Source: Mycobacterium paraseoulense
GTDB taxonomy: Bacteria > Actinomycetota > Actinomycetes > Mycobacteriales > Mycobacteriaceae
Direction: 5' to 3'
Length of the DNA stretch: 64,000 nt
Assembly: GCF_010731655.1 (NCBI RefSeq)
Contig: NZ_AP022619.1
Coordinates: forward strand, 4,836,001 to 4,900,000
Position numbers and translations under genes: made by a program. The notes under the pieces are model-generated. The model was not told the DNA's origin and did no database searches. It worked only from the letters and a program-made list of their open reading frames with translations. Below, in pieces: positions 1,583 through 14,081 of this stretch. The first letter of the stretch is position 1; each line of letters opens with the position of its first letter.

Positions 1583-2209
1583 ATGTCTTCCCATTTGGAG
1601 GTGTGGAAACCCTCGGGACGGGAGCTGATCGCGCTGAGCGGTGAACGAGTGACCCTGGGCAAGGCCTTGACCAACGCCGTGTCGTTCGAGCACGACCCGA
1701 CCGTGTCCCGCGTGCACGCCGTCTTGGAGAACTTCGGGCAAGCGTGGTCCGTGCGGGATCTCGGTAGCCGCAACGGCACCTACGTCAACGGGGAAAAGAT
1801 CGCCGCGGAACGGATCCTGCGGTCTGGAGACGAATTACGCCTGGGCAGTTCACGGTTGGTCTTCTGGATGACAAGGGGGGCCGACGAAGCACCGGGTGAT
1901 CAAGAAACCGAAACCGGCAAGTCCGTCCTGCGACCGCCTCGGATGACCCAGCGCGAACTCGAGGTCCTCAAGGTGTTGTGTCGGCCGTTCGTCTCCGATG
2001 ACCCGTTTCCCGAGCCCGCGTCGGTTCGTCGGATGGCCCAGGAGCTGTTCGTTACGGAGGCGGCCGTCAAGCAGCATCTGCAACACCTGTACGACAAGTT
2101 CGGTATCAACGCCGATGGAGATCGTCGGGTCCGGCTGGCCAACGCGGCCATCCGCCTCGGGGCTGTCAACCGCTCCATGCTGCGTGAGCGTCGCCCGCGG
2201 CAACGGTGA
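1583..2209 (+). CDS. FHA-domain protein with C-terminal helix-turn-helix
   Basis: 208-aa protein. ATG 1583 is chosen because AGGAGGGG lies just upstream; the frame stays open to 1439, but that extension looks non-coding. Residues about 18-95 form an FHA phosphothreonine-binding domain (SRVHAVL, DLGSRNGTYVNG). Residues about 120-195 look like a DNA-binding helix-turn-helix (MTQRELEVLKVL, then FVTEAAVKQHLQHLYDKFGI). FHA domains usually read Ser/Thr kinase phosphorylation, so this is probably a phospho-responsive regulator. It converges on the ECF sigma gene with only 12 bases between stop codons, so it may belong to the RiPP locus, but there is no direct proof. Confidence 0.8.
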   Translation: MSSHLEVWKPSGRELIALSGERVTLGKALTNAVSFEHDPTVSRVHAVLENFGQAWSVRDLGSRNGTYVNGEKIAAERILRSGDELRLGSSRLVFWMTRGADEAPGDQETETGKSVLRPPRMTQRELEVLKVLCRPFVSDDPFPEPASVRRMAQELFVTEAAVKQHLQHLYDKFGINADGDRRVRLANAAIRLGAVNRSMLRERRPRQR

Positions 2210-2221
2210 GCGGCCGCGTCA

Positions 2222-2983
2222 CTAGGAGACCTTGTCGAGCACCCCGCCGCCGAGCATGGCGACGGCGTTGAGGGCGCTGCGGCGGTATTCGTCGCATGTG
2301 GGGCACGACTCGATATGGCGCGCAATGCGTTTGCGCATCAGGACGGTGAACTGTTGGTCCCAGCCGGACAGCTCCGCGGAGAGGCGCGGGCATCCGTTCT
2401 GGGGAGCGCGGCGGGCCACCAACAGCGCCCCCAACGAGCGTTCAATGGTGTCGCGCAGCCGCTGCAGCAGCTTCTTGGTCGAGTCATAGCTGATGCCGAG
2501 CGTTCGTGCGAGCTCGGCTCCGGTCATGCCACGGCGGTAGGCGAGCTCCAGCACCTGGCGGTCGCGCTCGGACAATCCGCCGGCGGCCTGGGCGATCAGT
2601 TGGCGGAGTTCGTTCTGGGCCGTGAGCGTGAACGGCCCCGGGCCGGTGGCCGCGTTGTCGGGCAGCTCGTCGGACGCGGCCTCGCGGCGGCGTTCGGACA
2701 GGGTCCGCAGTGCGCTGCGCCGGGCGATGGCGTAGAGCCACGGCCTCAGCTTGTCCGCGTCACGAAGCTTCGGCAACTCTGTCGTCGCCGTGCAGAAGAC
2801 CTCTTGCACGCAGTCAGAGGCCGCGTGCCGATCGCGCAGCATGCCGACGCAGTAGGCGTGCAGCGGGGCGGCGTAGCGGTGGTAGATCCCGGCCAGCGCG
2901 GCGCGATCGCCGGCCGCAGCAGCCCGGGCGAGGTCCGCGTCGCTCACGATGGGGCTGTTCGGCAGTGTGGTCATGAAACTCAT
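2222..2983 (-). CDS. ECF sigma factor with C-terminal HxxxCxxC motif
   Basis: 253-aa sigma-70 family protein with region 2 (DCVQEVFCTATTELPKL, LRPWLYAIARR) and region 4 (LSERDRQVLELAYRRGMTG, then ELARTLGISYDSTKKLLQRL). After region 4 comes an extension of about 60 residues carrying H223-x3-C227-x2-C230 (HIESCPTC), the motif of zinc-binding anti-sigma domains. It thus looks like a sigma factor with a built-in ZAS-like regulator; no separate anti-sigma gene is adjacent. It is the nearest regulator to the three identical bipartite promoters of the RiPP locus, so I infer that it drives them. The start is ATG 2983; ATG 2974 is an alternative. Confidence 0.85.
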   Translation of the reverse strand: MSFMTTLPNSPIVSDADLARAAAAGDRAALAGIYHRYAAPLHAYCVGMLRDRHAASDCVQEVFCTATTELPKLRDADKLRPWLYAIARRSALRTLSERRREAASDELPDNAATGPGPFTLTAQNELRQLIAQAAGGLSERDRQVLELAYRRGMTGAELARTLGISYDSTKKLLQRLRDTIERSLGALLVARRAPQNGCPRLSAELSGWDQQFTVLMRKRIARHIESCPTCDEYRRSALNAVAMLGGGVLDKVS

Positions 2984-3024
2984 GACTGAAATGCTCGGCG
3001 ATGGCGGGTGATCTCGTAATTACC

Positions 3025-3042
3025 GTGGAAGCCAGTTTCCAC
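3025..3042. promoter_or_regulatory. Inverted repeat upstream of the sigma gene
   Basis: GTGGAA-N6-TTCCAC is a perfect 6-bp inverted repeat 42 bases before the sigma start codon. It could be an operator in the sigma promoter region. It does not resemble the bipartite promoters of the peptide genes, so the sigma gene may be under different control. Confidence 0.3.
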
Positions 3043-3136
3043 TCCCGAAAGGGAAGGGTTTCCTATCCGTTTGGTAAGGGTTTGTTCGGCAAGTGCCGGT
3101 AAGCCGACTCGGCTGCGGGGAGCATGCCGACGACGA

Positions 3137-3176
3137 CCACCGCCCCATCACCGTTACCTCGGTGATGGGGCGGTGG
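3137..3176 (-). terminator. 17-bp hairpin after precursor gene 1
   Basis: A perfect 17-bp stem (3137-3153 CCACCGCCCCATCACCG with 3160-3176) closes a 6-base loop, 27 bases after the stop codon of the precursor gene at 3204. There is no T-run after it, as is common for mycobacterial terminators. Its arm shares ACCGCCCCA with the hairpin behind the other precursor gene. Confidence 0.75.
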
Positions 3177-3203
3177 CGACGATCTTGACGTGTTATGGGC
3201 AGC

Positions 3204-3389
3204 TCACGCCTTCGTCTTGGTGTGCGCCGTGCGGGTGCCGGTGCCGTTTCCGGTGCCGGTCCCCGTGCCGTGGCCGGTGCCCGTGCCGGTGCCGTTGCCG
3301 CGGCCGCCGTGGGCGATGCGCAGCTCGTCGGCGGTCAGTGTGCGGATGCTCTGCCGGCGCAGCGCGATCTTGTCGTGGTTGATACTCAT
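3204..3389 (-). CDS. RiPP precursor peptide 1 (Gly/Thr-rich, Cys-free)
   Basis: 61-aa peptide. ATG 3389 is preceded by AGAAGGAAAGG and by a promoter at 3445-3475. Residues 1-29 are a leader with LRRQSIRTLTADELR ending in AHGG, a double-glycine site for a C39 peptidase. Residues 30-61 would be the core: alternating Gly-Thr with Asn, His, Lys and Arg, containing 11 Thr and no Cys or Ser. The leader is nearly identical to that of the peptide gene at 3602-3829. With the adjacent LanB dehydratase, many core Thr could become dehydrobutyrine; without Cys, no lanthionine could form. The core is coded by GGC/ACC repeats prone to slippage. Bioactivity is unknown. Confidence 0.85.
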   Translation of the reverse strand: MSINHDKIALRRQSIRTLTADELRIAHGGRGNGTGTGTGHGTGTGTGNGTGTRTAHTKTKA

Positions 3390-3444
3390 GTGACCTTTCC
3401 TTCTGGTGATTTGTTGACGGCAAGCCCGGGTGGGCCCGCTCATA

Positions 3445-3475
3445 GGTAGGAGCGCCGGCGACGTCGAAGGGTGAC
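3445..3475 (-). promoter_or_regulatory. Bipartite ECF-type promoter of precursor gene 1
   Basis: On the minus strand GTCACC, 16 bases, then GCTCCTACC. The same two blocks with the same 16-base spacing occur at 3885-3915 and 9650-9680. The -10-like block ends 55 bases before ATG 3389, leaving a leader of about 48 bases. The adjacent ECF sigma factor is the likely reader. Confidence 0.8.
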
Positions 3476-3537
3476 CCTTTTCCCGCGGAGATTTTGCACT
3501 TGCCGAACCCGGCCGGTTACCTGCCGGCACAGCGAGA

Positions 3538-3576
3538 ACCGCCCCACAATCGACACCAAATCGGTTGTGGGGCGGT
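3538..3576 (-). terminator. 16-bp hairpin between the two precursor genes
   Basis: ACCGCCCCACAA (3538-3549) pairs perfectly with 3565-3576. Four more pairs, one a G-T wobble, extend the stem to 16 bp around a 7-base loop. It begins 25 bases after the stop of precursor gene 2 and upstream of the promoter of precursor gene 1, so it would end or attenuate transcription from precursor 2. No T-run follows. Confidence 0.7.
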
Positions 3577-3601
3577 CTCTTCGGGTAGGCGCTGGGCTCT
3601 G

Positions 3602-3829
3602 CTAGGCCACCGTCAGCGTCTGCGTGGGTAAATGAGTAGCCGTCGGATTGGTGCTGGTGCCTGTGTGCGTTCCCGAGCTGGGCATCGTGGTGTGTTTGGT
3701 GGTCCTGCCCGTGCCGTTGCCACCGCCGGTGCCGTTGCCGCCCTGACCGCCGTGGGCCATGCGCAGCTCGTCGCCGGTCAAGGCGCGGATGCTTTGCCGG
3801 CGCAGGGCCAGCTTGTCGTTGGTGTTCAT
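3602..3829 (-). CDS. RiPP precursor peptide 2 (Thr-rich, Cys-free)
   Basis: 75-aa peptide. ATG 3829 follows AGGAGAGAC; the open frame upstream to 3907 contains the promoter and is not coding. Residues 1-28 are a leader (LALRRQSIRALTGDELRMAHGG region) ending in Gly-Gly, almost identical to that of peptide 1. The 47-residue core starts with a Gly/Asn/Thr stretch like peptide 1, then continues into a distinct Thr-rich tail with Pro. It has 15 Thr, 3 Ser and no Cys. It lies 87 bases after the LanB stop codon and has its own promoter. The predicted fate is dehydration by LanB and leader removal during export. Confidence 0.85.
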   Translation of the reverse strand: MNTNDKLALRRQSIRALTGDELRMAHGGQGGNGTGGGNGTGRTTKHTTMPSSGTHTGTSTNPTATHLPTQTLTVA

Positions 3830-3884
3830 CGTCTCTCCTGATTGTGATTTGTGTTGGCGCGGACCGGGTTTGGCCGCACTCACA

Positions 3885-3915
3885 GGTAGGAGCGACAAAC
3901 CTGGCAAAGCGTGAC
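3885..3915 (-). promoter_or_regulatory. Bipartite ECF-type promoter of precursor gene 2
   Basis: On the minus strand GTCACG, 16 bases, then GCTCCTACC. The upstream block begins 2 bases after the lanB stop codon (3917-3919), so the operon can be read through or restarted here. It shares sequence and spacing with the sites at 3445-3475 and 9650-9680. Confidence 0.8.
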
Positions 3916-3916
3916 G

Positions 3917-6900
3917 CTATTTCGCCCGCGCCAATCGGCTCGCGTAGTGGCGATCCAGAAAGTTCAGCAGGACGAGTTCGTGAGTGCGGGCGGCCGAGCG
4001 CAGCAGCCGCACGGCGTTCAGGTGGCTGAAGCTGTGCAGCAGCTCCGGATAGGACCGGGTCAGCTCACCCCGCCTGGAAAGGTCCGCCAGCTCCGCGAGC
4101 AAGGGCGCCATCCGGTCGGATCGCCGCCTGAACACCAGGCGCGCGGCTTCGTACGGGTGCCCCTCGCCGTCATCGAGCAGCGCGGTGATGTCGGCGCGCT
4201 CGCGGCGCCAGCGCTGCCCGATCCCGGGATCCAGGTTGGCGGCGTTGGGGTATTCCGGCCGGTATCCGGCGGCCCCGCTCTTGGCCCAGTCGCGGCGCTC
4301 GTGGATGTCCAGGCCCGCATCGGCCAGGAGGCGGTCGGTGGCATACAGGCACAACCGCCAGCGCGCGTCGGCCGCCTCCTCGCCGCCGAGCATGCCCAGG
4401 ACTCGCAGCACGGCCTCGCTGTCGACCGCATGGATCCGCTCGGCCAGCTCGACGCCGGCGTCGCCGCCGTAGCGTTCGATCTCGCGGTGGTACGTGTCGG
4501 TCGCGAACTTCCATATCGTCCCGTCGGCGAGCCGTGGCGCCAGGGCGTCGGTCAGTGCCGGGAGGGCGTGGTCGCGCAGCGCGGCGGGGTCCCCGTGCAA
4601 CCGGAGCCGCAGATGATGTTCGGGGTCGGCATAGCGCAGGAAGAACCAGTGGTCGACAACGCCGCTTTCGCGCAGCTGTTCGATGACGGGCCCGACGGTG
4701 TCGGTGAGGATGTGATCGGCCGACGCCGTACCCGTGTACGCCTTGAGGTAGAGCCACGGGCTGCCGGGTGCGAACGTCCGGCGCACCGTGGGCGCGGTCC
4801 ACGACCGGGGGGCGGGTGCCGGTTCGCCGCGGCGGAGGAACGGCACGATGAGTTCGTGGGCGAACCGGCCTTGCGGGCCGCCGGCGACCCCGGTGGGCAG
4901 GACCTCCTCGAGGATCGCCTCGGTCCGCCCGCGCAGCACCTTGGCGGCCGCGGCGGTCAGGGCGGGGCTGGCCGTGTCGACGTACAGGCGGTTGTCGCCG
5001 TCGGCGATGAGCAGCTCGCCGGGTAGCCCCCGCTCACGGGCGAGCGCCGCCCATGCGGCCACGGCGTCGGACCCGGTGACCCGGGCGATCTCGTCCGCCG
5101 ACAGCCGCCACCGCGCCCGTGCCAGGACCAGGCGCCCGGAGGTGACTCGGGGCAACGCCGGCGCCCCTGCCAGGGCGCCCCAATCCCACGTAAGCCCGCC
5201 GGCCACCCCGTCGCTTTGCAGTGCCGCGAGAAACCGGTAAACCCCGAAGCCGCGCCACGCCGGGTTGTGGGCGGTGGTCAGCCGCGGCCTGACTTCGGCG
5301 CCCAGCCGCGGGCTGTAGAGGACGACGCGGTCACCGTCGAGACGCACGGTCAGCTCGTCGACACTGAGCTGACGATCCGCGGGTGCCCCCGAACGACCCA
5401 ACAGGACCAGCTCGTAGTCGCGCAACACCGGCCGGGCCAACACATTCCCGACACGGCCTTCCGGCAGGTGGACGATCTCGGCGAACACGACACCGGGCGA
5501 CTGGGCCTCCTCGGCGCGCAGGTGGGCTCGTACCGCGTCGGACATGCGCGCATCGCCGTGACAGAACCGGCCGAGTAGCTGAGCTCCCGAAGGCCCGTAA
5601 ACGCAGTCGATCTCGATACCGTCCTCGAGGAGGCTGGCGTTGACCGCCAGGCCGTCGGGCAACGGCGGCGGCGACGGCGATTCCAGGCGCGCGACGGTAG
5701 GGGCGTCGAGTTCGAGGCTGGCAGCGCCGCTTTCGCGGGTGCGGATCATCATGTCGAGCAGGACGGCGTCGCGCGCGGTGAACGCATACTGCGGTGCCAC
5801 ACCGCCCAGGTCGAGGCCGGTCAGCAGTGGCGACTCGTCGGCGGCCGGGTGCGTCGACGGGTCGAATCCGACGCCCATCTCCTCGTCGAGCGCCTCCATC
5901 AGCGGGACCTCGCGGTCCTCGTAGCGCGCCGCGAACTGCTGCTTGAACCGAATCAGCGCCGGATCCTCGCCGCCGGTGGACAACCGATGCAGCAGGTGCA
6001 CGCCCTCGGTGAGCAGTCGCACCGCGTCGGATCCAAGCCTCAGACCGGACCCGGCCCGGTGCAGGTCGACCTGGATCAGCCGGGCTTCGTCGCCTTCGCC
6101 GGCCAGCTCGAGCAGGGTTGCGGCCGCGGCACCGTAGGCCTCCGGCGGATTTCCCAGCCCGGCGGCGTCCAGCCGGGCGAGCTCGTCGGATACCCGCCGC
6201 AACGCCTCCGACGTCGCGGCGAAGGCCGGTCCGCTCAGCGATGACATCAGCTGCGCCAGCGGTTCTGGGCCCGTTACCGCGGGCTCTGCCACCGGCGTCA
6301 GGACCTTGGCCTCGATCAGGGCATCGACGTACTCGCGGGCCTCGCCGCGCTCGACTACCATCCCTTCGGCAACGGCCTCGACGACCGTGTCCACCGAACA
6401 GCCGCCGGCGGCCGCGTCCAGCGCACACCGCAACGGCGCGTCGTCCTCGATAACGACCAGATGATGCGAGCGACGGCCCTCGCGAAGCCGGCTTTCGATG
6501 AGGCGCACGGCCCCGGCGGCGTGGTAGCGGCTGGAGTTGGGTTCCACCATCATCGCCGGCCGTGTCGCCGGATCCGCGAGCAGCCGCTGCACCAGCGCCG
6601 CCAGCACCTCGGTGTCGGGCCGGCTGTGCCGACTGACCCGCTGCGGGCCGTCGACCACCAGCGCGGTGGCTCCCGGATCTGGGCTCACCTCGCCCAGCGC
6701 GCAGCCCGCGAAAAGTCCGAAAGGGGTTGCGCGGGTGCACATGCGCGTCAGGTACGCGGTCACCGAGGCAATCACCCGGTCGTCGGGATCGCCCGCGGCC
6801 AAGCATCGCATCAACCCGGGTGAGGCGAGGTGCAGGGCCTCGCGAACCTCCGGCCGCGCAACGAGGGTCCGCCAGTGGTCGGAATCGGCGCGCAGGCAAT

Positions 6901-6982
6901 CCAATTCCTGCAGTGGCAGCAACGGCGCGCGCATCACGAAGAAGCCGCTCGGAGTCAGTGTGGACGTCGATGGAGCGTTCAT
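3917..6982 (-). CDS. Full-length LanB-type lantibiotic dehydratase
   Basis: 1021-aa class I lanthipeptide dehydratase. Such enzymes glutamylate Ser/Thr of a precursor using glutamyl-tRNA, then eliminate glutamate to leave dehydroamino acids. The N-terminal glutamylation domain shows the family signatures RAPLLP (18-23) and TPFGLFAG (86-93). The C-terminal elimination domain, from about residue 730, shows RYADPEHHLRLRL, YHREIERYGG and SFSHLNAVRLL with a His near 987, matching the Arg/Glu/His positions of this domain. Both halves appear complete, unlike split thiopeptide enzymes or PEARL ligases. ATG 6982 follows AAGGTAGG, 9 bases after the transporter stop. No LanC gene lies nearby. Confidence 0.92.
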   Translation of the reverse strand: MNAPSTSTLTPSGFFVMRAPLLPLQELDCLRADSDHWRTLVARPEVREALHLASPGLMRCLAAGDPDDRVIASVTAYLTRMCTRATPFGLFAGCALGEVSPDPGATALVVDGPQRVSRHSRPDTEVLAALVQRLLADPATRPAMMVEPNSSRYHAAGAVRLIESRLREGRRSHHLVVIEDDAPLRCALDAAAGGCSVDTVVEAVAEGMVVERGEAREYVDALIEAKVLTPVAEPAVTGPEPLAQLMSSLSGPAFAATSEALRRVSDELARLDAAGLGNPPEAYGAAAATLLELAGEGDEARLIQVDLHRAGSGLRLGSDAVRLLTEGVHLLHRLSTGGEDPALIRFKQQFAARYEDREVPLMEALDEEMGVGFDPSTHPAADESPLLTGLDLGGVAPQYAFTARDAVLLDMMIRTRESGAASLELDAPTVARLESPSPPPLPDGLAVNASLLEDGIEIDCVYGPSGAQLLGRFCHGDARMSDAVRAHLRAEEAQSPGVVFAEIVHLPEGRVGNVLARPVLRDYELVLLGRSGAPADRQLSVDELTVRLDGDRVVLYSPRLGAEVRPRLTTAHNPAWRGFGVYRFLAALQSDGVAGGLTWDWGALAGAPALPRVTSGRLVLARARWRLSADEIARVTGSDAVAAWAALARERGLPGELLIADGDNRLYVDTASPALTAAAAKVLRGRTEAILEEVLPTGVAGGPQGRFAHELIVPFLRRGEPAPAPRSWTAPTVRRTFAPGSPWLYLKAYTGTASADHILTDTVGPVIEQLRESGVVDHWFFLRYADPEHHLRLRLHGDPAALRDHALPALTDALAPRLADGTIWKFATDTYHREIERYGGDAGVELAERIHAVDSEAVLRVLGMLGGEEAADARWRLCLYATDRLLADAGLDIHERRDWAKSGAAGYRPEYPNAANLDPGIGQRWRRERADITALLDDGEGHPYEAARLVFRRRSDRMAPLLAELADLSRRGELTRSYPELLHSFSHLNAVRLLRSAARTHELVLLNFLDRHYASRLARAK

Positions 6983-6991
6983 TGCGGTTGC

Positions 6992-9148
6992 CTACCTTGC
7001 TGTTTCGCCGACGAGTTGTCCGGCCACGAGTCGTGCGTAATGGCCGCCCATGGCCATGAGTTCCTGGTGACAGCCCGCCTCGACGACCCGGCCCGCGTCC
7101 ATCACCACGATGTGGTCGGCGTCGATCACGGTCGCCAGTCGATGCGCGATCACGATGACGGTGCAGCCGAGCCGCGCGATATTGCCGTGGACCCTGGCCT
7201 CGGTGACGGTGTCGAGACTGCTGGTCGCCTCGTCGAGCAACAGGATCCGTGGCCGGGGGGCGAGCGCGCGTGCCAGGGCAAGCCGTTGACGTTGACCACC
7301 CGACAGCGAGGCGCCCGCGTCGACGAGCGGGGTGTCGAAACCCATTGGCATCGCGCGGATGTCCTCGGCGACGCCGGCCAGTTCCGCCGCCGACTCGAGC
7401 CGCTCCAGCGGCAGGCTGGGGTTACCCAGTACCAGGTTGTCGCGAATCGGCAGCCCGAAGATGTAGGGGTCCTGGGTCACCACGCCGATTTGCGAGCGCA
7501 CGCTGCGCGGGTGCAGGGTGGCGAGGTCATTGCCGTCGAGCAGGACGCGTCCCTCCGAGGGTGAGTAGAGGCCCAGTAGGAGCCGGCCCAGCGTGGATTT
7601 GCCCGACCCGGAACGACCCACGATGGCCAGGACCTGTCCGGGCCGCACCTCGAGGCTGGCGCCGTCGACGACCGGTGGGCCATGGGGGGTGTAGCGGAAG
7701 GTGAGCCGCTCGGCGCGTACCGATCCGATGAGTTCGGGCGCGTGTCGTAGCTCGCGCCCCGCGGTCTCCGTGGGGGTGTTGAACACGTCGTCAAGGCGGG
7801 CCAGGTAGCTGCCGAGCAGCTGCACTTGCAGCGCAGTCGCGACCAGAATGCCAAGTGGTTCAAGAAATCCCGTCGCCAGGGCAGCCAGGGCAAGCATGGT
7901 GCCCAACGAGAGCTTTCCGCTGGACGTCAGCTCGGCGCCGGCCAGCAGCACCGCGATGGGGGACAACAGCGCCAGCCCGTGGATCGCGGTCGAGACCAAG
8001 GCCTCGAGGCGCCCGCGGCGTAGCGAGACGTTCAGTTCGGCGACGAACAGGTTGGTCCAGTGCGCCACCGCGCGCCGCTCCGCGCCGGCCGCCTTGAGCG
8101 TTTCGACGGCGGAGAACATCTCGTAGGCGTAGGACTGTGAGCGGGCTTCGGTGGCCAGTGATTCGCCCATCAGGTGTTGGTTGCGGCGGCGCGCCGCCAG
8201 CAGGACGGCGACCTGGGCGGCGCCGAGCACGCAGACGAGAAGGCCCAGAGCCGGCGACAGGGCGACGATGACAACCAGGTAGAGGGTGGCCAGCGCGCCG
8301 TCGAGCAGCGCGGAGATGGTGCCCGTGGTCAGGATCTCGCGAACCGTGGCGTTGCTGCGCAATCGCATCATCAGGTCTCCCGACGAGCGCTTGAGGAAGA
8401 ACGCGTACGGCAGGTCCACGAGGTGCTCGAGGAAGTCGAGCGTCATGTCGACGTCCAGGCGACTGCGCAGCCGCAACAGCAAATGGGCGCGCAGATACGT
8501 CGCGAGCACCGAGTAGATGACCAAAGCGGCCATCACCGCGGCCAGCACTTTCAGCAGGCGCCCGTCGTCGTTGGGCACGACCCGATCGACGACCACGCCG
8601 GTCAGCACCGGCACCGCCAGCGCCATCACCCGCACCACCACCGAGGTGGCCAGCACCCGGCCGATCCCGGTCGATCGGGCCAGCAGGCGCCGCGCGTGAT
8701 GGAGCGCGCCGGGGGCTCTCCGCCCGCCCGCCGCGAAACCGTCGCCGGGCTCCAGCATGACCGCGACGCCGCTGTAGAGATCGTTGACCGCGTCCCAGCT
8801 GAGCCGGTAGCGACCGGCGGCCGGATCGACAATGGTCACCCCGCGCCGTGAAGTCGAGTCGAGGACGATGAAATGCGAAGCACCCCAATGTAGTACGGTG
8901 CCCCGGGGCAGAGCCCGCAGATCGTCGAGTTCGGTAGCCACGCCGCGGGCACGCAACCCGAACGAGGTCGCGGCCTCCGCGAGCCGCAAGGCGTCGATAC
9001 CGTCGCGCCCGGTCCCGGTGGCCTCGTGCGCCTCGGCGAGCGAAACGTGGCGGCCGTGATAGCCGAGCGCCATGGCGAGCGCGGCGGCGCCGCAGTCGGC
9101 CATTTCTGCCTGCGCAATGTAGGGGATCGCGCGTCCCCGCCCCTTCAC
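6992..9148 (-). CDS. C39 peptidase-containing ABC exporter
   Basis: 718-aa bifunctional transporter that cleaves double-glycine leaders and exports the peptide. Residues 1-130 are a C39 peptidase with Cys19 (QAEMADCGAAAL), His92 (GASHFIVLDS) and Asp108 (VDPAAG). Residues about 150-440 are the six-helix membrane domain. The rest is the ATPase with Walker A GRSGSGKST, signature LSGGQRQR and Walker B ILLLDEATSSLD. The GTG start overlaps the stop of the upstream gene in GTGA, showing translational coupling. C39 exporters normally serve class II lanthipeptides and bacteriocins, so pairing one with a class I LanB is unusual. The double-Gly leaders of both precursors fit it. Confidence 0.93.
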   Translation of the reverse strand: MKGRGRAIPYIAQAEMADCGAAALAMALGYHGRHVSLAEAHEATGTGRDGIDALRLAEAATSFGLRARGVATELDDLRALPRGTVLHWGASHFIVLDSTSRRGVTIVDPAAGRYRLSWDAVNDLYSGVAVMLEPGDGFAAGGRRAPGALHHARRLLARSTGIGRVLATSVVVRVMALAVPVLTGVVVDRVVPNDDGRLLKVLAAVMAALVIYSVLATYLRAHLLLRLRSRLDVDMTLDFLEHLVDLPYAFFLKRSSGDLMMRLRSNATVREILTTGTISALLDGALATLYLVVIVALSPALGLLVCVLGAAQVAVLLAARRRNQHLMGESLATEARSQSYAYEMFSAVETLKAAGAERRAVAHWTNLFVAELNVSLRRGRLEALVSTAIHGLALLSPIAVLLAGAELTSSGKLSLGTMLALAALATGFLEPLGILVATALQVQLLGSYLARLDDVFNTPTETAGRELRHAPELIGSVRAERLTFRYTPHGPPVVDGASLEVRPGQVLAIVGRSGSGKSTLGRLLLGLYSPSEGRVLLDGNDLATLHPRSVRSQIGVVTQDPYIFGLPIRDNLVLGNPSLPLERLESAAELAGVAEDIRAMPMGFDTPLVDAGASLSGGQRQRLALARALAPRPRILLLDEATSSLDTVTEARVHGNIARLGCTVIVIAHRLATVIDADHIVVMDAGRVVEAGCHQELMAMGGHYARLVAGQLVGETAR

Positions 9149-9600
9149 CGCAGCCTCGGCATTAACGCGCTGATCAGCCGCTGCCGTCCTTGCGGAACAA
9201 CAAGTTCACCGGACGGCGCCGAAACGGGCCGGTCCAACTCGGCCTTCACCTCGGTCGCGGTCACGTCGATGACGACGGCGCCGTGCGTTGTGCCGGAAGC
9301 ATCCCGAAATTGGACGGCAGCACCCCGGGCAGGCGGTATGCCGCCGCCACGGCTCGCCGTGACAGTCATGCCTTGCGTGACGGCCGGCAGCGCCTCGGTC
9401 CGCGCAATGCTGACCGTGCCGGCGATCAGAGCGCCGGCTGCCAACAGCACACCGAGCATGACGAGTCCCGCCTCGGTCCGCTCCTGCTGCTTGATCAGTT
9501 CACCGGGGCGGCTCGCCGTGGATTGGCGGTCGCGCCACCGCTCACGAAACACCGGCTCATGCCGGGTCTCGCCGTCGTCGCTATTTCGGTCGGCTTCCAT
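9145..9600 (-). CDS. Small HlyD-like membrane-fusion accessory protein
   Basis: 151-aa protein with a charged N-terminus (FRERWRDRQSTASRPGELIK), one membrane helix at about 44-66 and an external beta-rich tail. The layout matches the start of HlyD-family adaptors of C39 exporters, but the long coiled-coil and lipoyl parts are missing. ATG 9600 follows AAGGAGCGACGA and lies downstream of the promoter at 9650-9680, so the longer reading to 9717 is rejected. It is the first gene of the operon with the ABC exporter and LanB. It could be a minimal adaptor suited to a mycobacterial envelope; the family call is moderate because similarity is confined to the N-terminal half. Confidence 0.7.
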   Translation of the reverse strand: MEADRNSDDGETRHEPVFRERWRDRQSTASRPGELIKQQERTEAGLVMLGVLLAAGALIAGTVSIARTEALPAVTQGMTVTASRGGGIPPARGAAVQFRDASGTTHGAVVIDVTATEVKAELDRPVSAPSGELVVPQGRQRLISALMPRLR

Positions 9601-9649
9601 TCGTCGCTCCTTGGGTGGCGGTCGGTCGCAGACGGGGCCGACTCTCGCG

Positions 9650-9680
9650 GGTAGGAGCTTCAGCGGTGCGAAACGGTGAC
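9650..9680 (-). promoter_or_regulatory. Bipartite ECF-type promoter of the transporter-lanB operon
   Basis: On the minus strand GTCACC, 16 bases, then GCTCCTACC, identical in blocks and spacing to the promoters of the two precursor genes (one base differs in the upstream block of precursor 2). It stands 50 bases before ATG 9600. Confidence 0.8.
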
Positions 9681-9775
9681 ACCTTTTGGGGATGCTGCCG
9701 GCGCCGGCCTGTGGCAATCGCCCGGACCCGATCTAGAGTCCACGGGTTTTGCCGAGGATTATGACCGTCCTCCGG

Positions 9776-10600
9776 TCAGCCCTGCGCGAGCTCGGCGACG
9801 GGCTGCCATTCCGCCCAGGTGCGTAGCCGGCTCTCATAGTCGGCCTTGGCGGTTTCCAGCGGCGAGGCCCCGAAAAACACTCGCAGCGGCGGCTTTTCGG
9901 CGTCGACCACCTTCAGCAGCGCGGCGGCGGATGCCTCCGGGTTGCCCGGGCTGGCCCAGCGCTTGCTGCGCTCGGCCTGCACGGCGGCGCGAACGTCGTC
10001 GTAGGCCGGCAGCGGATCGGCGTGCCTGGCGGAATCTCCGGCCCAGTCGGTGTCGAAGCCGCCCGGCTCGATCAGCGTGACGTGCACCCCGAACGGGGCG
10101 ACCTCCTGCGCCAGCGCCTGTGAGAAGCCCTCGAGCGCCCACTTGGACGCGTGGTACATGCCGACCAAGGGGAACGCGGTGATGCCCCCGATCGAGGACA
10201 CCTGGATGATGTGCCCGCTGCCCTGCGCCCGCAGATATGGCAGCGCGGCCTGGGTGACCCACAGCGCCCCAAAGACGTTCGTCTCGATCTGGTCGCGCGC
10301 GTCCCGTTCGGAGAGCTCCTCGACGAAGCCGAACTGCCCGTAGCCGGCGTTGTTGACGACGATGTCCAGCCGCCCGAAGTGGTCGTACGCGTGCTTGACC
10401 GCGGCGAAGTCGGCGCTTCGATCCGTGACGTCCAACCGGATCGGCAGCAGCGCGTCGCCGTATTTCTCGGCCAGGTCGTCGAGTGACGCCGTGTTGCGCG
10501 CTGTCGCCGCAACCCTGTCGCCGCGCTCGAGCGCCGCGATCGCCCATGCCCGTCCGAAACCGCGCGATGTCCCGGTGATAAACCAAACTTTTTCAGTCAC
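9776..10600 (-). CDS. Short-chain dehydrogenase/reductase
   Basis: 274-aa classical SDR. The NAD(P)-binding motif is TGTSRGFG at residues 9-16, NNAG lies near 85, and the catalytic Ser plus YHASK follow near 140-160. The GTG at 10600 (MTEKVWFITGTSRG) is chosen; a TTG at 10612 would add four residues, and neither has a good Shine-Dalgarno sequence. Substrate unknown. It stands alone between the RiPP operon and menG, facing away from menG with 55 bases between start codons. Confidence 0.85.
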   Translation of the reverse strand: MTEKVWFITGTSRGFGRAWAIAALERGDRVAATARNTASLDDLAEKYGDALLPIRLDVTDRSADFAAVKHAYDHFGRLDIVVNNAGYGQFGFVEELSERDARDQIETNVFGALWVTQAALPYLRAQGSGHIIQVSSIGGITAFPLVGMYHASKWALEGFSQALAQEVAPFGVHVTLIEPGGFDTDWAGDSARHADPLPAYDDVRAAVQAERSKRWASPGNPEASAAALLKVVDAEKPPLRVFFGASPLETAKADYESRLRTWAEWQPVAELAQG

Positions 10601-10655
10601 GAAGTGTTGCAACGCCGATGTCGCCGCCTAATTCCCGAGAGGTAGCGTCTCCGTC

Positions 10656-11348
10656 ATGAGTCGCGCGGCCTTGGACAAGGACCCCCGGGACGTCGCGTCG
10701 ATGTTCGACGGCGTGGCCCGCCGCTACGACGTGACCAACACCGTGCTGTCGCTGGGTCAGGACCGGTACTGGCGGAAAGCCACCCGGTCGGCGCTGGACA
10801 TCGGGCCGGGCCAGCGGGTGCTGGACCTCGCCGCGGGCACGGCGGTATCCACCGTCGAGCTGCAGAAGTCGGGGGCATGGTGTGTGGCGGCCGATTTCTC
10901 GGTGGGGATGCTCGCGGCGGGGGCGGCTCGCGACGTGCCGAAGGTCGCCGCCGACGCCACTCGCCTGCCGTTTGGTGACGATGTATTCGACGCCGTCACA
11001 ATCAGTTTCGGGTTGCGCAACGTCGTCGTTCCGCAGGCGGCACTGCGTGAGATGGCTCGGGTCACCCGCCCGGGCGGCCGATTGGTGGTGTGCGAATTCT
11101 CCACGCCGACCAATGCGCTGTTCGCCACCGCCTACAAGGAGTACTTGATGCGGGCGCTGCCGCGGGTGGCGCGCGCGGTGTCCAGCAACCCGGACGCCTA
11201 TGTGTACCTCGCGGAGTCGATCAGGGCCTGGCCCGACCAGGCAAACCTGGCACGCGAAATCGCGCGGGCCGGATGGGCGGCGGTGCGGTGGCGCAACCTG
11301 ACCGGCGGCATCGTCGCCCTACACGCGGGCCACAAGCCGCTGCGGTGA
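10656..11348 (+). CDS. menG: Demethylmenaquinone methyltransferase
   Basis: 230-aa UbiE/MenG-type SAM-dependent methyltransferase catalysing the last step of menaquinone synthesis. The SAM motif is [11 protein letters not shown] near residues 50-60; the UbiE features [12 protein letters not shown] (N-terminus) and [21 protein letters not shown] (middle) are clear. ATG 10656 follows GAGAGGTAGC. In H37Rv this gene (Rv0558) directly follows mgtA; here about 9.3 kb separates them. It works in the same pathway as menJ and probably grcC1 nearby. Confidence 0.92.
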
Positions 11349-11355
11349 GAACGCC

Positions 11356-11709
11356 CTAGTGGGTACCGGCGCGCTGCACGAAGCCGACCTGGTCGGGGCA
11401 GTAGTGGTCCACCGCGGCACCGAGGAACTGGAACGCCTGCCCCTGGGTGGTGCCCCGCGGCAGGTTGTGCTGGATGAAATTGGCGGACTTGTACGGGTCG
11501 CCGTCCACACCCCTGGCGATCCGCTCGCAGGTGATCTTGCCCAGCCACGCGAGCTGGTCCTGCGGCTGGTAGATGCCGAAGCCGTTGACCGTGTTCTTGA
11601 ACGGGGCGTCCTGGTCGTTGGGCGGCGGCGGCGAGGCCAATGCCGGCGCGGCCAGCGCGATGGCGGCGGCGGCCAGGCCGCCAATAGTAGCCAGCTTCGT
11701 TCCCTTCAT
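11356..11709 (-). CDS. Secreted DUF732-family protein
   Basis: 117-aa exported protein. A signal peptide (KLATIGGLAAAAIALAAPALA) ends near residue 25. The mature part (NTVNGFGIYQPQDQLAWLGK, then two Cys in TCERI and HYCPDQ) has the small helical DUF732 look common in mycobacteria. ATG 11709 is chosen because it starts the signal peptide. Its position between menG and menJ matches Rv0559c. It converges on menG with 7 bases between stops. Function unknown. Confidence 0.8.
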   Translation of the reverse strand: MKGTKLATIGGLAAAAIALAAPALASPPPPNDQDAPFKNTVNGFGIYQPQDQLAWLGKITCERIARGVDGDPYKSANFIQHNLPRGTTQGQAFQFLGAAVDHYCPDQVGFVQRAGTH

Positions 11710-11813
11710 TAGCCGGACTATACACCGCTCGCCCGAACCGTGCGGAAAATTCTCGACGCCCGCAGTCGGGACCGAGCACCGTTTGCGCACGTCAATGACG
11801 GTGAGCAGTTCGC

Positions 11814-13049
11814 TCAGCTGAACGGCACCCGGCGATCGACCAGCCGGGACAGCCGTCCGGCGCCCCGCCAGGCCCGCGCCACCCAGTCGGCGTCATCGTC
11901 GGTGACGAGGTTGGCCATCACCCGCACGGCGATCGTCATCAGCCTCGGGGAGCGCATCGCGATCGGCCCCGTCGTGGGCAGGAACCGCTGGAACGTCAGC
12001 AGCAGCGCCAGCCTTCGGGCGATCGAGAACCCCCGGCCGTAGTGCTCCTGCAGCAGCGCCGGCCACACCCGCGACAGGTCGCGGCAGTCCAGCAGCTCGG
12101 CGGCCAGCCGCCCCGTCTCCATCCCGTAGTCGATGCCCTCGCCATTCAACGGGTTGACGCAGGCCGCGGCGTCGCCGATCAGCATCCAGTTGGGCCCGGC
12201 CACCCCGGACACCGCGCCGCCCATCGGCAGCAACGCCGACGACACGGCCCGCGGCGGCCCGTCGAAGCCCCACTCGTCGCGGCGCAGGTCGGTGTAGTAG
12301 TTGATCAGCGGTCGCAGCGCCAGGTCGGCCGGCCGTTTCGACGTCGACAGCGCGCCGACGCCGATGTTCACCTCGCCGTTGCCGAGCGGGAAGATCCAGC
12401 CGTAGCCGGGCAGCACTTTGTCCTTGGAGCCGTCGGGTCCGCGCAGCTCCAGGTGCGACGTCAGCCACGGGTCGTCGGCGCGCGCGGTGGCCAGATAGCC
12501 GCGGGCCGCGACGCCGTACACCGTCTCCTGGTGCCAACGCCGCCCCAGCTCGCGGCCCAGCGAAGACCGGGCCCCGTCGGCCACGATCAGCTGCCGGCAG
12601 CCCACCTCCGTGCCGTCGGCCAACGTCAGCGACACCACGCGTCTCGACGAGTCATGATGGACAGCAACGGCTTTCGTGCCCAGCATCATCCGGGCGCCGG
12701 AATCCTCGGCGACCTTGCGGATCCGGTCGTCCAACTCGAGTCGGGCCACCGCACTGCCGGTCGAGGGAAACGACGGGCCCGGCCAGCCGACTTCCACCTC
12801 GCCGCCGAATCCGCTCATCCGCAGGCCCCGATGCCTGATGCGGGTGTCCAGCCAGTCGCCCAGCCCGAGGCGCTCGCACTCGGCGACCGCGCGCGGCGTC
12901 AGCCCGTCACCGCATGGCTTGTCCCGCGGAAAGCTGGCGGAGTCGATGACCAGCACGTCGTTGCCGGCGCGTGCCGCCCACGCGGCGGCCGCCGAGCCGG
13001 CCGGTCCGGCGCCGACGACCACCAGGTCGGCTTTGGTCTCCACGCTCAC
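11814..13049 (-). CDS. menJ: Menaquinone reductase MenJ (FAD-dependent)
   Basis: 411-aa flavoprotein of the geranylgeranyl reductase family. FAD binding is shown by VVVGAGPAGSAAA (GxGxxG at 13-18) and LIGDAAACVNPLNGEGIDYG, plus the family motif PRDKPCGDGLTPRAV. The order matches Rv0561c, MenJ, which saturates one isoprene unit of menaquinone-9. GTG 13049 is chosen; GTG 13043 is also possible and would fit a leaderless transcript better. Its start codon is only 15 bases from that of grcC1 on the other strand. The H37Rv methyltransferase gene Rv0560c, expected just before it, is absent. Confidence 0.88.
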   Translation of the reverse strand: MSVETKADLVVVGAGPAGSAAAAWAARAGNDVLVIDSASFPRDKPCGDGLTPRAVAECERLGLGDWLDTRIRHRGLRMSGFGGEVEVGWPGPSFPSTGSAVARLELDDRIRKVAEDSGARMMLGTKAVAVHHDSSRRVVSLTLADGTEVGCRQLIVADGARSSLGRELGRRWHQETVYGVAARGYLATARADDPWLTSHLELRGPDGSKDKVLPGYGWIFPLGNGEVNIGVGALSTSKRPADLALRPLINYYTDLRRDEWGFDGPPRAVSSALLPMGGAVSGVAGPNWMLIGDAAACVNPLNGEGIDYGMETGRLAAELLDCRDLSRVWPALLQEHYGRGFSIARRLALLLTFQRFLPTTGPIAMRSPRLMTIAVRVMANLVTDDDADWVARAWRGAGRLSRLVDRRVPFS

Positions 13050-13067
13050 CAGTATGTTGGTCGGGTG
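13047..13067. promoter_or_regulatory. Compressed divergent start region of menJ and grcC1
   Basis: Only 15 bases separate the two GTG codons. On the plus strand TATGTT (13054-13059) sits 5 bases before the grcC1 GTG; on the minus strand the same bases read as CATACT-like, just ahead of menJ. Both transcripts would be leaderless or nearly so and would share one -10 region. Inferred from position only. Confidence 0.4.
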
Positions 13068-14081
13068 AGTACTCCGGCGACGGTGGTGGCGGGCGTGGAC
13101 TTCGGCGACGCCGCGTTCGCGGCGGCCGTGCGCGACGGTGTCGGGCGGATCGAGCAGCTCATGGACACCGAACTGCGCAGCGCCGACGAGGTGATGACCG
13201 ACTCGCTGACGCACCTATTCAAGGCCGGCGGCAAGCGATTCCGGCCGTTGTTCACGGTGCTGTCCGCCCAGATCGGGCCGAACCCGGAGGCGCACGACGT
13301 GACCATCGCCGGCGCGGTCATCGAGCTGGTCCACCTGGCCACGCTCTACCACGACGACGTGATGGACGAGGCGGAGGTGCGCCGCGGCGCGCCGACCGCG
13401 AACGTCCGCTGGGGGAACAACGTCGCGATCCTGGCCGGGGATTACCTGTTCGCCACGGCGTCGCGGCTGGTCTCCCGGCTGGGACCGGAAGCGGTACGGC
13501 TGATAGCCGAGACGTTCGCCCAGCTGGTGACGGGCCAGATGCGCGAGACGCGCGGCCTGACGGGACCGGCCGAAGGGGCGGACGCGATAGAGCACTACCT
13601 GAAGGTGGTGTACGAGAAGACGGCCTGCCTGATCGCCGCGGCGGGCCGTTTCGGCGCCATGTTCTCGGGCGCCGACGCCGAGCAGGTCGAGCGGCTGAGC
13701 CGGCTCGGCGGCATCGTGGGCACCGCGTTCCAGATCTCCGACGACATCATCGACATCGACAGCGACTCGCACGAGTCGGGCAAGCTGCCCGGCACCGACG
13801 TGCGCGAGGGCGTGCACACCCTGCCGATGCTGTACGCCCTGCGCGAATCCGGGGCGAACGCGGCGCGGCTGCGCGAGCTGCTGGCCGGCCCCATCGACGA
13901 CGACGACGCGGTGGCCGAGGCGCTGGCGCTGCTGCGGGCGTCCCCCGGCATGGCGAAGGCCAAGCAAACGCTGGCGGAATATGCGGCCCAGGCACGCGCC
14001 GAGCTGGCGCTTTTACCCGACGTCGCCGGCCGGCGCGCGCTGCAGACGCTGGTGGACTACACCATCAGCCGGCACGGCTAG
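13065..14081 (+). CDS. grcC1: Polyprenyl diphosphate synthase GrcC1
   Basis: 338-aa trans-isoprenyl diphosphate synthase, close to the usual length of about 335. The two Asp-rich motifs are DDVMD (97-101) and DDIID (226-230), with GGKRFRP near residue 55 and a QMRETRGL region between. It would make the long isoprenoid chain used for menaquinone or related lipids, fitting its place beside menJ and menG. GTG 13065 is chosen since the upstream extension overlaps menJ. Confidence 0.9.

Follow-up and report, generated by a model that had tools for sequence, protein, structure and literature searches.

A cyclase-less LanB and C39-exporter locus of Mycobacterium paraseoulense with threonine-rich, cysteine-free precursors, putatively making linear dehydrobutyrine-rich peptides

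We analysed a 64,000-nucleotide stretch of the genome of Mycobacterium paraseoulense (contig NZ_AP022619.1 of assembly GCF_010731655.1, positions 4,836,001 to 4,900,000; hereafter the window), which carries a LanB dehydratase gene together with a C39 exporter gene and two short precursor genes. We propose, with a probability of about 0.6, that this locus is switched by an extracytoplasmic function (ECF) sigma factor, that LanB dehydrates the threonines of the precursors, and that linear dehydrobutyrine-rich peptides are exported after cleavage behind a Gly-Gly pair. All six genes are on the minus strand, in the transcription order membrane protein, C39 exporter, LanB, precursor A, precursor B and ECF sigma factor. 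The features of the locus, in window positions, are as follows.

2222 to 2983, minus strand: ECF-type sigma factor, 253 amino acids, with PF04542 (region 2) and PF08281 (region 4)
3204 to 3389, minus strand: precursor B, 61 amino acids, Gly-Gly leader and Gly-Thr repeat core
3446 to 3475, minus strand: promoter motif GTCAC-N17-GCTCCTAC, 56 bases before the start codon of precursor B
3602 to 3829, minus strand: precursor A, 75 amino acids, Gly-Gly leader and Thr-rich core
3886 to 3915, minus strand: promoter motif GTCAC-N17-GCTCCTAC, 56 bases before the start codon of precursor A
3917 to 6982, minus strand: full-length LanB dehydratase, 1021 amino acids, glutamylation and elimination domains
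6992 to 9148, minus strand: C39 peptidase/ABC exporter, 718 amino acids, with PF03412 (Peptidase_C39), PF00664 (ABC_membrane) and PF00005 (ABC_tran)
9145 to 9600, minus strand: conserved accessory membrane protein, 151 amino acids
9651 to 9680, minus strand: promoter motif GTCAC-N17-GCTCCTAC, 50 bases before the start codon of the accessory-exporter-LanB operon

The following pathway is proposed. The neighbouring ECF sigma factor would transcribe three units from the three near-identical promoters. LanB, as its conserved domains and residues suggest, would bind the leader, glutamylate threonine (and serine) by means of glutamyl-tRNA, and eliminate glutamate. Neither LanC nor cysteine is present, and the dehydrobutyrines would be expected to stay unsaturated. 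The C39 domain would then cleave after Gly-Gly and the ABC part would export the core, with the accessory membrane protein as a possible adaptor. Dehydration, the persistence of dehydrobutyrine, the cleavage site, export and an extracellular function are all what we infer.

Precursor A consists of a 28-residue leader and a 47-residue core with 15 threonines, three serines and no cysteine, and precursor B of a 29-residue leader and a 32-residue core with 11 threonines and neither serine nor cysteine. Against a threonine background of 4.9%, taken from seven neighbouring proteins, the probability of this enrichment by chance is about 4e-9 for A and 2e-7 for B. The two leaders are identical at 22 of 28 residues when the one additional histidine of B is excluded. 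Both end in AHGG and have L-12, E-8, L-7, G-2 and G-1, which is the usual double-glycine leader pattern. The original prediction, made from the window sequence alone, had described two short genes with near-identical double-glycine leaders and cores packed with threonine, and both points were confirmed. The sequence LALRRQSIRAL of precursor A has the spacing of LxLxKx5L with Arg for Lys, and IALRRQSIRTL of precursor B has, in addition to this replacement, Ile for the first Leu. Neither precursor of the window matched the NCBIfam leader model NF038153 (cut-off, 22 bits), and relatives from three other loci, L009, L004 and L058, also scored below the cut-off (15.4, 13.5 and 17.9 bits, respectively).

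A protein database search with precursor A yielded 92 proteins, 91 of which were parsed, with medians of 32% threonine and zero serines in the core. KHTT is retained in the A-type cores (40 of 43 rows with TTGT/PSSGTH). Variants with a single cysteine in the motif TGTCIPTR were seen at locus L005 (7141-7275) and in the database proteins P0063, P0069, P0072, P0077-P0079 and P0197. A second precursor subfamily, with cores of SGTSVI and NPSGG repeats, was found at L002 (7025-7273 and 13164-13430), at L009 (13126-13413) and in P0095-P0206. With the L009 peptide as query, 112 proteins were obtained; three of the 102 parsed have a core cysteine, as do two of the ten unparsed. One of the matches, P0200, has SGTSVI repeats beneath a leader that scores 24.2 bits, above the cut-off of 22, with the NCBIfam leader model for class I lanthipeptides. 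Beyond the M. paraseoulense genome, this subfamily had no match among 396 Actinomycetota.

The prediction of a full LanB with both domains was borne out by matches to PF04738 (residues 42-674, 453 bits) and PF14028 (residues 743-1013, 207.6 bits), and the gene has no internal stops. Mutation of Y80, R83, R87 or T89 of NisB abolishes or lowers dehydration (PMC4341554). These residues align with Y77, R80, R84 and T86 of the window LanB, which are invariant in 11 of 11 close LanBs. R792, R794, E834 and R837 of the elimination domain, and H987 in the C-terminal motif that we take to hold NisB H961, are identical across all 20 aligned LanBs. This motif (residues 987-992) reads HLNA(V/I)R throughout the close clade, in LanC-plus and LanC-minus loci alike, and eight other aligned LanBs have forms of H(L/M)(H/Q)xNR at the same place. 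The exporter, which had been predicted to contain a catalytic triad, matched all three of its domains, and C19, H92 and D108, which we assign as the likely triad, are invariant in nine of nine aligned sequences.

The predicted lack of a cyclase also held: the host genome, which is complete in one contig of 6,085,955 bases, gave no LANC_like match. LanM, LanKC and LanL enzymes each contain a LanC-like domain, so that this absence speaks against those enzymes in the genome as well. The only match of Lant_dehydr_C (PF14028) in the genome is the LanB of the locus, and both matches of the precursor profile are at the locus. For the nisin system, NisB dehydrated precursors in which cysteines had been replaced stepwise, with NisB and NisC present, and it dehydrated the unaltered precursor more when NisC was absent; because of these results, dehydration by a LanB is independent of cysteine and of LanC (PMC8546558).

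Selection was estimated against two relatives. Precursor B shows no nonsynonymous and 13 synonymous changes against M. nebraskense (L006), and 1 and 11, respectively, against L007. Purifying selection on precursor B is strong, and from this pattern of changes the Gly-Thr repeat is retained for its amino acids. The ratios of nonsynonymous to synonymous rates (dN/dS) against L006 were 0.22 for LanB, 0.16 for the exporter, 0.23 for the sigma factor (0.14 against L007), 0.47 for the accessory protein and 0.78 for precursor A. Precursor A, with a range of 0.65-0.78, evolves faster and under little constraint.

LanB relatives were found in nine of 198 genomes of the genus, six of them close (67-100% identity, own genome included) and three distant (29-33%). 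The precursor profile matched in the six close-LanB genomes and nowhere in the remaining 192; such a mycobacterial search had been suggested with the original prediction. LanC was present in none of the six close-LanB genomes and in all three distant-LanB genomes, in two of which it is beside LanB. A scan of genome contigs found 11 loci, of which nine are mycobacterial and the other two belong to Nocardiaceae. L011 ends within LanB; the order accessory-C39-LanB is identical in all 11 and in a further locus, L059. Loci with identical precursors were counted as one genome (L001 with G170, L005 with G081, L007 with G080 and L008 with G014). On this count, 11 mycobacterial genomes have the module; some of the assemblies are incomplete, and a LanC domain was found in one (L003), within a kinase-like fusion on another contig. 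An order-wide sample gave a LanB match at E 1e-50 in 15 of 397 genomes, and the best one beyond the close clade was in G435. Ordinary-looking LanB-LanC pairs were seen in other mycobacteria, at L060 (G066, 7215-7514), where a Cys-rich small open reading frame lies upstream of lanC, and at L061 (G052). A mycobacterial metagenome assembly (L056) contains a kinase-like/LanC fusion that is class III/IV-like by eye.

LanC-bearing relatives of the module do exist. In Smaragdicoccus niigatensis (L004) and in a Nocardiaceae assembly (L010), orthologous accessory, C39 exporter and LanB genes (LanB 72-74% identical to that of the window) are followed by LanC (PF05147, 108 bits in L004; the L010 copy is 83% identical). 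Their precursor lies on the opposite strand and shares the leader type, but its core, RAFSDHGSGCATSDRCATYACPRSSSSW, has three cysteines, and no copy of the window sigma factor or its promoter was found in the fetched stretches. The Smaragdicoccus peptide is named 'Bacteriocin' by NCBI. The LanB of G435, a sister outside the close clade (44-46% identical), also comes with LanC and C39 and with a small open reading frame whose leader is of the LxLxKx5L, Gly-Gly type; no accessory protein was found at the G435 locus. From these three relatives, the module is placed among the class I lanthipeptide systems, and the mycobacterial module is the form of it without the cyclase and, almost always, without cysteine. 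The simplest history is that mycobacteria lost lanC, with a gain in Nocardiaceae as the alternative.

Three copies of the motif GTCAC-N17-GCTCCTAC lie in the window, where 0.02 are expected. These are the only exact matches in the whole host genome, and the reversed control gave none. Regions upstream of the precursor and accessory genes were scored on 12 positions. A score of at least 10 was reached by 14 of 19 regions in six sigma-bearing loci, versus none of 15 in the six loci without the sigma factor (L002, L004, L008, L009, L010 and L059; L011 was left out). The six regions preceding the sigma gene and, in the window, the two preceding LanB and C39 scored below 10. A relative of the sigma factor is present at six of the 13 close-LanB loci examined (window, L001-L011 and L059), namely the window, L001, L003, L005, L006 and L007. 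The neighbouring ECF sigma factor likely drives the three promoters.

Several observations weigh against the proposed pathway. Dehydration, cleavage and the product itself are so far predictions. The claim of cysteine-free cores, true of both cores in the window, does not extend to the whole family: 12 of the 91 parsed relatives of precursor A have a core cysteine (six share TGTCIPTR, four appear frame-shifted by eye, and two are others), and so does one of the 19 pattern-found precursors in LanC-less loci, the third of the three at L005, while the other 18 have none. LanC gave no match in the genome of L005 (G081) despite this variant. HLNA(V/I)R in place of HLHxNR could mean that elimination is altered. 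Forcing ten mycobacterial LanBs into one clade cost 1.48 log units (approximately unbiased test, p 0.324), and a single clade, with one loss of lanC, is thus neither rejected nor shown. As for the switch, the window supplied the motif, the threshold of 10 was fixed once the scores were known, and L006 and L007 are close relatives; without these two and the window, 5 of 10 sigma-bearing regions reach it versus 0 of 15. A loosened promoter pattern gave eight matches in seven other genomes (two at the cluster, in G080 and G081) versus 23 for the reversed control, which is nothing above chance. Sigma relatives occur in seven of 41 genomes (own, two at 86% in G001 and G010, and four at 39-63%), and LanB was not found in G001 or G010. 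The presence of sigma relatives beyond the cluster means that the sigma factor is not strictly tied to it.

Other fates of the precursors were weighed against this evidence. LanB might glutamylate threonine without elimination, or with partial elimination, so that glutamyl esters, or some other unusual modification, would remain on the exported peptide. The altered HLNA(V/I)R motif and the existence of LanB relatives with other chemistry, the PEARLs (PMC11002830), would fit this. However, the elimination domain is of full length with R792, R794, E834, R837 and H987 unchanged in all aligned LanBs, and HLNA(V/I)R is also present in L004 and L010, where the adjacent LanC and the core cysteines suggest dehydration, and we regard this fate as unlikely. 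Equally improbable is closure or alteration of the dehydrated peptides by a route other than LanC, for instance one in which Lys, His or external thiols add to dehydrobutyrine spontaneously or through an unlinked enzyme. The retained KHTT and the variant class with a single TGTCIPTR motif are in its favour, but the neighbourhood comparison shows no additional conserved enzyme, the host genome has neither LanC nor YcaO, and dehydrobutyrine reacts slowly.

Slightly less probable still is a decaying lanthipeptide locus, in which LanC was lost, LanB is irrelevant and the precursors leave the cell with essentially no modification. LanC-bearing relatives, the survival of the sigma factor without the cluster in G001 and G010, and the fast evolution of precursor A could be read in this way. 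Decay is hard to reconcile with a LanB under a dN/dS of about 0.22 and free of internal stops, with dehydration-critical positions invariant in the 11 close LanBs, with a precursor B that has no amino-acid change against L006, and with the repeated occurrence of the module in 11 mycobacterial genomes. The linear, dehydrobutyrine-rich product that had been predicted remains the best reading, given no LanC, no cysteine, and an intact LanB and C39 exporter, with dehydration itself as its putative step.

The pairing of LanB with C39 is already known, in Bacteroidetes, and the original statement that the combination was not known as a described family is not supported in that form. Class I precursors there have LxLxKx5L leaders with Gly-Gly ends and C39 peptidases (PMC7268733), and share with the window LanB, the C39 peptidase, the Gly-Gly end and, for precursor A, the leader spacing LxLx[K/R]x5L. 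Those clusters, identified by way of LanC, all have it, whereas the window locus has no LanC, cysteine-free cores, Arg for Lys in the leader and a Mycobacterium host. That survey started from LANC_like proteins, and therefore full-length LanB loci without LanC would be outside its reach. A version of this module with LanC and cysteine is also found in Nocardiaceae. Pearlins and pyritides likewise use a LanB-family enzyme and a Cys-less precursor without a cyclase, but their LanBs are truncated, while that of the window has both domains in one chain (PMC11002830). A pearlin (PEARL) system is ruled against by the PF14028 elimination domain, and, as far as the dehydratase goes, a pyritide system by a LanB that is neither truncated nor split and supplies the host's sole PF14028 match. 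Goadsporin-type azole peptides and thiopeptides retain dehydroamino acids from LanB-type dehydration, but LanB is split there (PMC10783134), unlike in the window. A thiopeptide or goadsporin-type product was rejected, as YcaO was found in none of the five genomes tested. The nisin machinery without NisC or with the cysteines removed also dehydrates without cyclase or cysteine, but that state is engineered, whereas that of the window is natural (PMC8546558, PMC4341554). The available excerpts of PMC12945691, PMC10783134 and PMC7296275 describe nothing matching the locus. A class I lanthipeptide requires a LanB with both domains, which is present, and LanC and core cysteine, which are absent; by this definition the product would not be a lanthipeptide, and in its working the locus would resemble the first half of the lanthipeptide pathway.

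Around these genes, the layout is compact: the accessory and exporter genes overlap by 4 bases, and the exporter-LanB gap is 9 bases. The accessory protein is predicted to have a single long helix (32-59), which likely spans the membrane, and then a small beta-barrel-like domain (about 65-140). An FHA-domain protein (window 1583-2209), whose C-terminal part is weakly like a LuxR-type helix-turn-helix, adjoins the sigma gene in L006, L007, G001 and G010 and is near the accessory gene in L003. G001 and G010 have the same flanks as the window (glycosyltransferase, FHA protein and sigma factor; SDR and ubiE). Their slot between the sigma factor and SDR contains P450-/monooxygenase-like genes, named by eye (L068 of G001, 3633-9639; L069 of G010, 9919-13140). 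A slot of about 6.7 kb (window 3081-9780) is variable between sister genomes. Genes common to at least three of the 12 loci compared were the exporter, LanB, the accessory protein, the sigma factor (six loci), the FHA protein (four) and a flanking glycosyltransferase (three), with no immunity gene among them. Because of this absence, our guess leans to a signalling or surface role over that of a lantibiotic.

The accessory protein, the sigma factor with its three matching promoters, and the family across mycobacteria were missed by the original prediction. New here are the co-occurrence of LanB and precursor, the LanC-bearing Nocardiaceae relatives, the three-copy ECF-type promoter and the purifying selection on precursor B. 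Such mycobacterial peptides were not named in any of the paper listings examined. It is possible, though somewhat short of an even chance, that they form a separate product class, linear secreted poly(glycyl-dehydrobutyrine) repeat peptides, derived from a lanthipeptide module by removal of the cyclase and the cysteines with the dehydratase kept, with cores of Gly-Thr, KHTT/PTTGTH or SGTSVI/NPSGG repeats and, in part, a private ECF-sigma switch. If the threonines are dehydrated, about one in three core residues would be dehydrobutyrine, and we know of no peptide with a denser content. The LanC-plus and LanC-minus forms of this one module share the leader type, LanB and the exporter, and are a natural experiment on the purpose of a LanB product without rings.

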